A stretch of DNA of 64,000 nucleotides, taken from NCBI GenBank assembly GCA_026390165.1, contig JAPLGM010000004.1:124001-188000 (forward strand). The letters are read 5' to 3'. This DNA comes from Campylobacterales bacterium (GTDB lineage Bacteria; Campylobacterota; Campylobacteria; Campylobacterales; Sulfurimonadaceae). The position numbers and the translations under genes were made by a program. Below the pieces are notes generated by a model that was not told where the DNA came from, ran no database searches, and worked only from the letters and a program-made list of their open reading frames with translations. This document shows positions 1,343-33,954 of this stretch, piece after piece; position 1 is the stretch's first letter; each line of letters starts with the position of its first letter.

Positions 1343-9998
<8,656 letters not shown>

Positions 9999-31721: not shown

Positions 31722-32266
31722 TGCTCCGTCTTTGTTCCTCCTCCATCACCCGCGCTGAACTTCTTCGCACAGCGGGTATCCCCTTTTTCCAAGAGTCCAT
31801 CGATTTCGATGAAGACTCTATTGTTTCTTCTTGTCCTAAAAATTTTGTTTACCAAGCCACGCTCGGAAAATACCGTGTCAACTATGAAAAATTTGGATGC
31901 ACTGATTTTCCTTTACTTGTAGCGGATACAGTCGTTACGGCGCAAGATAAAATCTTGCGAAAAGCCAAAGATGAAGCGGATGCGCGCGCTATTTTAGCAA
32001 CACAAAGCGGCTGTGAAGTGACTATTCTCACCTGTATGATTTACAAAACACCTCGTTTAGAACTTCTCGATATTTCTTCTACCCACTATTTTTTCAATCC
32101 ATTTGATCCCGATGATATTGATCGCTACATCGCAAGCGGTGAGTGGCGCGGAAAAGCGGGGGCGTGTATGGTAGAGGGGTTTTGTAAACCGTATATTCGT
32201 GAAACGAGAGGTTTTGAGAGTACGGCGATGGGGCTTTGTGTGGAAGTGCTTAAACCTTTTCTTTAA
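31721..32266 (+). CDS. maf: Maf-family nucleoside triphosphate pyrophosphatase
   Basis: Maf proteins hydrolyse non-canonical or modified nucleotides to monophosphates and can slow septation. The 181-residue protein has the N-terminal LRLCSSSITRAELLRTAGI pattern, the VADTVV motif (family VxADTVV) with the catalytic Asp, and a C-terminal AGACMVEGF like the family GKAGAYGIQG. ATG 31721 overlaps the preceding stop by one base; a TTG one codon earlier is less likely. Confidence 0.9.
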   Translation: MLRLCSSSITRAELLRTAGIPFFQESIDFDEDSIVSSCPKNFVYQATLGKYRVNYEKFGCTDFPLLVADTVVTAQDKILRKAKDEADARAILATQSGCEVTILTCMIYKTPRLELLDISSTHYFFNPFDPDDIDRYIASGEWRGKAGACMVEGFCKPYIRETRGFESTAMGLCVEVLKPFL

Positions 32267-32279
32267 AAAATAAAATGTC

Positions 32280-32305
32280 AATTGTAGCCGTTTTGTGCTA
32301 CAATT
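32280..32305. promoter_or_regulatory. Inverted-repeat operator upstream of the DinJ-YafQ module
   Basis: AATTGTAGC (32280-32288) and GCTACAATT (32297-32305) are perfect 9-bp arms around an 8-nt centre, 23 bp before the antitoxin start. DinJ-type antitoxins bind palindromes over their own promoter, so this is the likely autoregulatory site. TACAAT in the right arm could be the -10 box. Confidence 0.6.
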
Positions 32306-32327
32306 ATAAAAATATAAAGGAGTTACT

Positions 32328-32603
32328 ATGGCGATGGAAGCAACTATTAGAGCTCGATGCGATGCAGATTTAAAGAACGCGGCAGAAGCAATATTTAAAG
32401 AGCTTGGTATTTCTACGTCCCAAGCGATTAATATGTTTTTAGCTAAAGTTAAAAGAGAAAAAGGTATCCCTTTTGAACTAAAAATTCCTAATGAACTAAC
32501 GGCGAATGCAATGGAAGAAGCTCGAAGAGGGATTAATATGGAATCCATTACGTTAGATGAGCTGAAGGGTGAATTTGAAAGTATGAGACATGCTAAGCGT
32601 TGA
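32328..32603 (+). CDS. dinJ: RelB/DinJ-family antitoxin
   Basis: This is a 91-residue protein with an N-terminal ribbon-helix-helix DNA-binding region (ATIRARCDADLKNAAEAIF then ELGISTSQAINMFL), the signature of DinJ/RelB antitoxins, and a C-terminal toxin-neutralising tail. AAAGGAG precedes the ATG. It overlaps the toxin gene by 14 bp and probably represses the pair through the inverted repeat upstream. Confidence 0.9.
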   Translation: MAMEATIRARCDADLKNAAEAIFKELGISTSQAINMFLAKVKREKGIPFELKIPNELTANAMEEARRGINMESITLDELKGEFESMRHAKR

Positions 32604-32859
32604 GCGACATAAGCAATTTATAAAAGATAGTGCGAGTATTAAATTAAGCGAAAAGCATTTTTCAAAATTTGTCGTTTATTTGGCTAAATTGATACAAAAC
32701 GAATGTTTACCCGCAGAAGCACACAATCATGAGCTCGATGGAGATTGGAAAGGTTTTTTGGAGTTTCATATTAGTGGTGATTTACTGATAATTTATAGAA
32801 TTGATGACAAGATACTTAAACTTATTAGGATGGGATCACATTCTCAATTGTTTGGGTGA
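32590..32859 (+). CDS. yafQ: YafQ-family mRNA interferase toxin
   Basis: This is an 89-residue RelE-superfamily toxin that would cut mRNA on the ribosome. The HELDGDWKGFLEFHI stretch and the following DLLIIYRID are the conserved YafQ core with the catalytic histidines; a further conserved His is in the C-terminal GSHSQLFG. It starts inside the antitoxin gene (14-bp overlap), as is usual for this pair. The REP-transposase unit lies directly downstream. Confidence 0.9.
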   Translation: MLSVERHKQFIKDSASIKLSEKHFSKFVVYLAKLIQNECLPAEAHNHELDGDWKGFLEFHISGDLLIIYRIDDKILKLIRMGSHSQLFG

Positions 32860-32927
32860 TAAAAAATGAATAATCTTTACGTACATAATGTTCCTTTGCC
32901 TCATCAATCATATGAGACGCGAGGATT

Positions 32928-32964
32928 CCTCGTTCCCAAGCTCCAGCTTGGGAATGCATACTAA
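32928..32964 (-). repeat. REP element, left copy flanking the RAYT gene
   Basis: These 37 bases are the exact reverse complement of 33531-33567. The core is itself a hairpin: TTCCCAAGCT pairs with AGCTTGGGAA around CC. This hairpin-with-flank design is the substrate form of REP-associated tyrosine transposases, and the gene lies between the two copies. Confidence 0.88.
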
Positions 32965-32987
32965 AGCTAACGAGACAATAACAAACA

Positions 32988-33521
32988 ATGGGTAGAAGCA
33001 GATATAAAATAGTCGAACCAATGCACCCACATTTTATTACGTGTACCATATTGCATTGGATACCGATATTCACACGAATGGAAACCGTTCAAATTGTATT
33101 GGATAGTCTCAAATATCTACAAAAGAGTGATAACTTAAAAATCTATGCGTATGTTATCTTGGAAAACCATCTTCATTTAATAGCAAGTAGTGACGATATT
33201 TCCAAATCAATGCAAAAGTTCAAATCATTCACAGCTAAAGAAATTTTGTATTATCTACAAAAACAAAATGCGAAAACAATACTCGATCAATTGGCATTTT
33301 ATAAAAAAGCTCACAAAATAGAAACATCTTATCAATTATGGCAAGAAGGAATACAGCCAAAATGTATTCAAAATGAAGCTATGATGATTGAGAGGGTAAA
33401 CTATATCCATCAAAATCCTCTTAAGAGGGGATATGTGGATGAGGCTAAACACTGGAGATACAGCAGCGCGAGAGATTATGAAGAGATTGAAGGATTGTTG
33501 GAGGTTGAACGGTTATGGTAA
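32988..33521 (+). CDS. REP-associated tyrosine transposase (RAYT, Y1/HUH family)
   Basis: RAYTs are single-copy HUH enzymes that cut and join REP hairpins as single strands. The 177-residue protein shows the metal-binding HUH motif in ENHLHLIA (His61, His63) and the catalytic tyrosine (Tyr139) in NYIHQNPLKRGYV, the family's YIxxNPxxxG form. Perfect inverted REP copies sit 24 bp upstream and 10 bp downstream, which makes a complete REPtron. All key residues are intact, so it may be active. Confidence 0.9.
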   Translation: MGRSRYKIVEPMHPHFITCTILHWIPIFTRMETVQIVLDSLKYLQKSDNLKIYAYVILENHLHLIASSDDISKSMQKFKSFTAKEILYYLQKQNAKTILDQLAFYKKAHKIETSYQLWQEGIQPKCIQNEAMMIERVNYIHQNPLKRGYVDEAKHWRYSSARDYEEIEGLLEVERLW

Positions 33522-33530
33522 ATAGTAGCA

Positions 33531-33567
33531 TTAGTATGCATTCCCAAGCTGGAGCTTGGGAACGAGG
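33531..33567 (+). repeat. REP element, right copy flanking the RAYT gene
   Basis: This is a perfect inverted partner of 32928-32964 (37 of 37 bases), with the same TTCCCAAGCT / AGCTTGGGAA hairpin. Its right edge abuts the truncated DUF1016-type coding remnant, so the unit probably inserted into, or recombined with, that gene. Confidence 0.88.
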
Positions 33568-33835
33568 GCAAATACTTAAGCATGAGCGAGCAGAGTATGG
33601 CAAAGAGATTGTCAACTCATTGAGTAGACAATTGGTGAATATGTATGGGAATGGATATTCTGCAAAAAATCTCAGACATATGATGAAATTTTTGGTAATA
33701 TTGAAATTGTCTCTACACTATCGAGACAATTGTCATGGTCTTATTTTAAAGAATTTATCTACCTGCAAGACAAACTAAAAATAGAGTTTTACACCCAAAT
33801 GTGTAAGCTTGATCATTGAGCGGTTTCTATTAGGA
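33568..33835 (+). pseudogene. DUF1016/YhcG-type PDDEXK nuclease remnant
   Basis: Directly after the REP copy, the frame reads ILKHERAEYGKEIVNSLSRQ then LVNMYGNGYSAKNLRHMMKF, the N-terminal DUF1016 domain without its first part. A frameshift near 33690 moves the continuing homology (FGNIEIVSTLSRQLSW, FKEFIYLQDKLKIEFYTQM) to another frame, which ends KLDH-stop at 33817-33819 where the family has Trp. The nuclease domain is missing. This gene is dead. Confidence 0.78.
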
Positions 33836-33954
33836 AAGGGGGATCAAAGGGTAAAACCCCTCGCCCTTAGTTACCGCTCCATTGATTACACAGACAGTTT
33901 TGTTCGCAATAAAATTATAGCATATAAAAGTACAAAAAAATACGAAGAGAACCT

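Follow-up and report, generated by a model that had tools for sequence, protein, structure and literature searches.

Does the transposase gene that lies between two inverted hairpins in a Campylobacterales genome belong to a REPtron, and is there reason to think that such a unit still moves? We addressed this using the window (the whole 64-kb stretch of DNA that was analysed) and a set of related genomes and loci. RAYTs are generally seen as domesticated genes, present in one copy, that move short REPINs and not themselves (PMC8049555), and recognition of the REP is known by experiment for the GTAG groups only (PMC8266576). In the main texts of the open literature searched, no account of RAYTs in Campylobacterota or of the present REP sequence was found. 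An earlier reading of the letters alone (the sequence-only reading) had proposed a complete REPtron with an intact HUH transposase, in which the perfect identity of the two flanking REPs would suggest recent or ongoing activity.

The element and its transposase

The locus contains the following features:

32929-32961, + strand: left REP, with foot CTCG at 32929-32932, stem 32933-32941 / 32946-32954, loop TCCA at 32942-32945 and tail TGCATAC at 32955-32961
32988-33521, + strand: RAYT, a TnpAREP-like HUH Y1 transposase of 177 aa with H61, H63 and Y139 (matches to Y1_Tnp, NF047646 and 4er8)
33534-33566, - strand: right REP, inverted, with foot CTCG at 33566-33563, stem 33562-33554 / 33549-33541, loop at 33553-33550 and tail TGCATAC at 33540-33534
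32929-33566, no strand assigned: predicted mobile unit CTCG...CGAG (REP-RAYT-REP), its ends taken from copies that lie in unrelated flanks in relatives
32261-33954, no strand assigned: variable island between maf and bioF with relB-yafQ, the element and an N-terminal DUF1016 remnant; context, outside the element proper

The RAYT open reading frame starts with ATG and has no internal stops. The two arms (32928-32969 and 33526-33567) are 42 nt long and 98% complementary, and they contain the 37-nt stretch of exact reverse complementarity that the sequence-only reading had described. Each REP stem consists of nine Watson-Crick pairs (TTCCCAAGC/GCTTGGGAA) closed by a TCCA loop, with a possible extra G.T at the base, so that the 10 bp given earlier was a fair count. 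As single-stranded DNA, both hairpins were far more stable than dinucleotide shuffles (z -4.3 and -5.0). In a covariance model built from 30 REPs, the window REP included, the left and right REPs scored 57.9 and 57.7 bits, respectively, the former value not being independent since the left REP is one of the model's own 30 rows, and these two flanking REPs were the only good matches within the window. A search of the 64-kb window against Rfam gave no family at gathering score.

The 177-aa protein matched Pfam Y1_Tnp just above the cut-off and NCBIfam NF047646, 'REP-associated tyrosine transposase', well above it (E 2.5e-28), and no domain beyond Y1_Tnp was found in it. A profile search returned 4er8, the E. 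coli TnpAREP with its REP hairpin, as the sole PDB sequence match, and 4er8 was also the top fold match of the AlphaFold model, which is of moderate confidence (pLDDT 66). The motifs NHLH, WQ and YIHQNP are present, and the catalytic residues had been placed correctly in the sequence-only reading: in 78 uninterrupted relatives H61, H63, Y139 and N143 are invariant and P144 is found in 76, with WQ replaced by WE in 20. Of the features of a RAYT in the broad sense, HUH, a single catalytic Tyr in Y---NP and inverted REPs that are also found elsewhere in the genome are present.

Subclass 2.6 (Bertels group 5) is characterised by NH[LIV]H, WQ and YIH[QN]NP and a length of about 179 aa (Table 1 of PMC6006769), its members come mostly from Bacteroidetes, and the 'atypical secondary structures' on either side of them lack GT[AG]G (PMC6006769). 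The element studied here shares with this subclass the motifs NHLH, WQ and YIHQNP, the length (177 compared to about 179 aa) and hairpins that lack GT[AG]G and have further copies in the genome. By motif and length, rather than by the published profiles, we place the protein as a RAYT of TnpAY1 subclass 2.6 (Bertels group 5). However, no consensus is stated for that subclass, whereas a uniform CTCG / TCC / TGCATAY pattern was found here, in Campylobacterota and several proteobacterial groups. The element is a REPtron in the ordinary sense proposed earlier, a RAYT between inverted REPs with other REPs occurring singly and paired elsewhere, but it is not of the well-studied GTAG-reading type (groups 2 and 3), as shown by its CTCG foot and by protein motifs that are those of subclass 2.6 / Bertels group 5.

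The residues that read the guide in E. coli include Q95, E100, H101 and R104 (PMC6006769). The W118-Q119 loop sits where the E. coli guide-reading loop does, and the four E. coli residues align with Q119, P124, K125 and Q128, of which P124 is conserved in 72, Q128 in 63, Q119 in 57 (E in 20) and K125 in 55 (E in 21) of the 78 relatives. With the E. coli REPtron and its group 2 TnpAREP (4er8; PMC8266576), the element has in common the HUH/Y1 nuclease, a gene between inverted REPs, the occurrence of REP pairs (there BIMEs) and a 5' tetranucleotide at the hairpin foot, whereas the foot is CTCG instead of GTAG, the bulge is absent, and guide contacts E100/H101/R104 are replaced by P124/K125/Q128. 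The change in guide-contact residues may correspond to the change in the foot.

A CTCG-footed REP family in relatives

CTCG-type REPs flank RAYT relatives in Campylobacterota, Gammaproteobacteria, Desulfobacteraceae and Hydrogenedentota, the comparison set of 80 related loci with organism names including Sulfurimonas, Sulfuricurvum, Sulfurovum and others for the first of these groups and Oceanospirillum, Methylobacter, Psychromonas, Colwellia, Sedimenticola and others for the second. The REP consensus consists of a 5' foot CTCG, a compensated stem of 8-10 bp, a TCC(N) loop and a 3' tail TGCATAY. In a test in which the best hairpin of each of 173 flanks was picked by structure only, the CTCG foot (at most one mismatch) was found on the proper strand in 108 flanks, compared to 12 on the opposite strand and 4 in shuffled sequences, and the TGCATA tail in 104, 10 and 7, respectively. 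Motif-guided extraction recovered REPs on both sides in 69/84 loci; here 132 of 154 REPs had precisely CTCG as the foot and none had GTAG or GTGG, the loops were mostly TCCN, TCC or TCT, and the tail was TGCATA in 99. Stem cells with two-sided compensatory changes numbered 62, whereas shuffles gave 17.6 and sliding of the partner 7-14. The stem cells were paired in 99.6% as compared to 71.6% in shuffles, a percentage that is inflated by the choice of hairpins for pairing, which affects the two-sided changes and the foot conservation less. Left and right 5' stem arms were identical in 45/60 loci, compared to 7% between loci, and stem distance tracked RAYT distance (Mantel r 0.23 and 0.20, p<0.001).

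Since the hairpins are G+C-rich and many of them are located downstream of genes, they might be nothing more than transcription terminators or structures of mRNA ends, located next to a transposase gene by chance. Yet neither the conserved unpaired foot and tail nor the strand bias is a feature of terminators, the foot stays CTCG as the stem varies, and REP copies are also found within the open frame of priA, and we therefore regard this explanation as hardly credible.

REPs and REPINs in the source genome

The sequence-only reading had suggested counting the REP core genome-wide and asking whether copies are single or paired, and had named a lack of further copies among its grounds for refutation; further copies were in fact found. 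The core pattern (at most three mismatches) was found at 13 distinct sites of the source genome, compared to none for the reversed control, and the structural model gave ~39 non-redundant REPs at E<0.01 (34 at E<=0.001) in the 2.64-Mb assembly. Both single and paired REPs occur, and many form inverted pairs 0-18 nt apart with the feet outward, i.e., REPINs of 74-92 nt, as at C16:72674, C18:76586, C22:142608, C8:127287, C18:67686, C18:76801 and C22:191292. These REPINs have the geometry of a RAYT element from which the gene is missing, and REPINs of one type were observed in unrelated flanks, with their ends at CTCG, in several genomes.

The source genome carries three RAYTs, each between inverted REPs, and the surrounding REPs belong to two stem classes. 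The three are 69-75% identical to the nearest paralogue and are not recent copies. Some REPIN stems (CCCAACG...) fit none of these RAYTs, but fit those of the relative G015. RAYT presence is patchy (18/150 relative genomes), and REPs were found in all 18 RAYT-bearing relatives, with a median of 7 compared to 0 in RAYT-negative genomes (p 6e-10). RAYT presence and REP number were associated within the genus (p 4e-4), and 54 of the 132 RAYT-negative genomes retained some REPs.

Two further repeats of the source genome were noted. At L237 (G000:C30:4718-4753 and 5909-5944) identical REPs lie 1.19 kb apart in the same orientation with small ORFs between them, whereas the other pairs are inverted. 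An intergenic stretch of ~58 nt (L239 872-929, G000:C8:127171-127228; TCGGAAC..GTCCCGA..CTGGGTTC..GAGCCCACGCG) has many copies across the genus at 80-94% identity and no Rfam match, a sub-threshold hit of MIR825 over its hairpin pair being discarded as chance (29.7 bits compared to a cut-off of 160).

CGTC-tagged REPs (CGTCATTCCCGCG..GCGGGAATCCA) were also seen in the same genus, at the tsf site of G024 and G007 (L325 and L326) and in the priA linker of G010 (L379). In this linker they share the region with CTCG-type REPs of the source genome (C13:230960 and 231162), and the reading frame is intact in both genomes. The CGTC-tagged REPs (PMC3733652) resemble those described here in hairpin design (ATTCCC...GGGAAT, stem of 8-9 bp), genus and sites (tsf, priA), but differ in the tag CGTC and the tail CCA, and the tag was carried by none of the RAYT-flanking REPs examined here. 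A dedicated transposase has been reported absent for them (PMC3733652).

History of the locus

The genes maf and bioF adjoin or overlap in most genomes of the genus, and in the source genome they are separated by 1.7 kb comprising relB-yafQ, the element and the N-terminal DUF1016 remnant. The RelB/DinJ-YafQ type II toxin-antitoxin pair (32328-32859) is located immediately upstream of the element, and the DUF1016 (PDDEXK-type) remnant (33567-33778; Pfam E 1.3e-11), which lacks a start and the C-terminal part, directly follows the right REP. Downstream of the remnant, the stretch 33844-33927 recurs at 78% in G024 and G012, where it lies at other loci.

At the corresponding locus, the relative G032 carries a RAYT whose protein is 94% identical, together with REPs of the same stem, and the element is therefore older than the split of the source genome (G000) and G032. 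On the maf contig of G032, a truncated relB is joined straight to the left REP, followed by the RAYT and by the right REP at the contig end, and another contig begins inside the same REP and runs into bioF. The G032 tail DDIAQYLTVLPPKELLESKLHQALENARKKFPINE, which we take to resemble the C-terminus of DUF1016/YhcG, found no support for this assignment in Pfam. The element is common to both genomes, with flanks that differ as they would after separate deletions from the foot.

Comparison of the G000 and G032 RAYTs gave a dS of 0.21 and a dN/dS of 0.125, indicating that the copy in the window is old and under purifying selection, and hence its recent activity is not supported. The claim of recent or ongoing activity from perfect left-right identity was thus not upheld: such identity is no sign of recency by itself because it is the rule in the family, as seen in 45 of 60 loci, and the element predates the split from G032.

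Copies of the whole unit and deletion derivatives

Better evidence for mobility comes from relatives outside the window, namely G015 and the MAG JALSUP. In G015, contigs C17 and C8 have the same terminal 127 nt, identical from the first C of CTCG through the left REP into the start of the RAYT, with unrelated flanks and both open reading frames cut. An assembler would be expected to break off in this way at repeated units. The N-terminal RAYT pieces of G015 were considered as internal deletions and rejected, as they are contig ends. In JALSUP, the loci L171 and L189 share 92.5% identity that is confined to the REP-to-REP unit and runs from CTCG to CGAG, the flanks being unrelated, and three loci from different bins (L159, L168 and L170) have nearly the same unit ends. 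G015 (~5% contamination) and JALSUP are both metagenome bins, as are most of the genomes in this comparison, and two strains per bin could mimic two copies. As to the single or low copy number of RAYTs, the source genome has three divergent paralogues, and repeated units were seen in these two bins, with strain mixture possible.

Related copies differ by deletions that start at the foot; G066 and G074 have the unit and the right flank in common (98.5%), and only one of them has the 195 nt that adjoin the left foot. Internally deleted RAYTs between both REPs were found in G074 (residues 1-34 + 124-177), G083 (residues 1-32 + 128-177) and G032:C60, and these are plausible precursors of REPINs. 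Nearly the same middle was lost in the G074 and G083 copies (L361 and L363), from residues about 33-35 to 123-127.

At the sites examined in relatives, no exact empty site for the whole RAYT unit was recovered. The upstream context of the glmU site in G030 was not syntenic, at glnA-pckA and tsf presence and absence were clear but intergenic divergence masked the exact joint, and the priA linker of G010 carries a CGTC-type REP and so does not count as empty.

According to the standard view, the RAYT would be a domesticated and essentially immobile host gene, kept for a host function, while the REPINs alone move, in trans. The dN/dS of 0.125, the identity of only 69-75% between the three paralogues and the description of RAYTs as single-copy, vertically inherited and not self-copying (PMC8049555) are consistent with this view. 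On the other hand, the patchy occurrence in 18/150 relatives, the existence of interrupted and internally deleted copies, the identical or 92.5% identical units in unrelated flanks of one bin, and the position in a variable island instead of a conserved locus all argue against it, and for these reasons we find it rather unlikely.

An ordinary IS200/IS605 insertion sequence would have the HUH/Y1 fold in common with the element, and could account for the repeated-unit behaviour in two relatives. However, the ends of IS200/IS605 elements are not inverted repeats, whereas those of the window element are inverted; moreover, the unit is without tnpB, and the hairpins exceed the gene by ~39 to 3. Since, in addition, YIHQNP is the class 2 form Y---NP and not Y---Q (PMC6006769), we consider this explanation very improbable.

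A Y1 transposase gene between inverted repeats able to form repeat families is also found in TIRtrons (TIRYT; PMC3733652). The typical TIRYT (mainly subclass 2.1), in contrast, has a C-terminal helix-turn-helix extension and GGGGWSAS repeats, and neither a helix-turn-helix domain in the 177-aa protein nor GGGGWSAS in the arms was found.

Proposed mechanism and significance

In our opinion the element is quite probably a REPtron of subclass 2.6 / group 5, whose RAYT would process CTCG-footed REPs as single strands; binding, strand choice, cleavage site and the activity of this copy we infer. Most likely, the RAYT would bind the single-stranded hairpin on the strand 5'-CTCG-stem-TCC(N)-stem-TGCATAY-3', with Y139 cutting beside the foot and H61/H63 holding a metal ion, and the cut strand would then be transferred, by a mode that may be either replicative or cut-and-paste. 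In E. coli, TnpAREP cuts at CT dinucleotides close to the hairpin (PMC8266576), and the CT within the CTCG foot is a candidate cleavage site. As the feet of the two inverted REPs point outward, the substrate could be any CTCG...CGAG segment, be it an empty REP pair (a REPIN of 74-92 nt), a complete RAYT gene or one with an internal deletion, and one-sided events would delete DNA adjoining the foot.

We further put forward, tentatively, that the REP-RAYT-REP unit might still be an autonomous, single-strand-processing transposon with its ends at the outward CTCG feet, from which REPINs would continually be formed by internal deletion. If so, this clade would still show the passage from transposon to domesticated RAYT plus REPINs, a step believed to have been lost in E. 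coli and Pseudomonas. In the main texts searched, neither a uniform CTCG/TGCATA REP definition nor repeated whole units were found, and priority is uncertain.

A clade with a distinct and uniform foot and tail would represent a second natural solution to REP recognition, in which the guide-contact amino acids differ together with the foot. The exact-ended units in unrelated flanks and the deletion derivatives make it testable whether REPtrons move themselves and whether REPINs are products of internal deletion.

More distant RAYT matches in Bacteroidota are 28-34% identical, and in the three plasmid relatives examined there, CTCG hairpins and paired REPs were not found. These three (L230, L231 and L232) are on Bernardetia and Persicobacter plasmids; the hairpins of L230 and L232 take the form CGTAGTC..GACTACG and the repeats of L231 are GGTCGTAGTC, with a GTAG string within the repeat. 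RAYTs are said to be absent from plasmids (PMC8049555). A 60%-identical RAYT was observed at positions 1106-1633 of NZ_CP114587.1, a 562-kb Salinivibrio kushneri replicon that is listed as a plasmid and may be a chromid.
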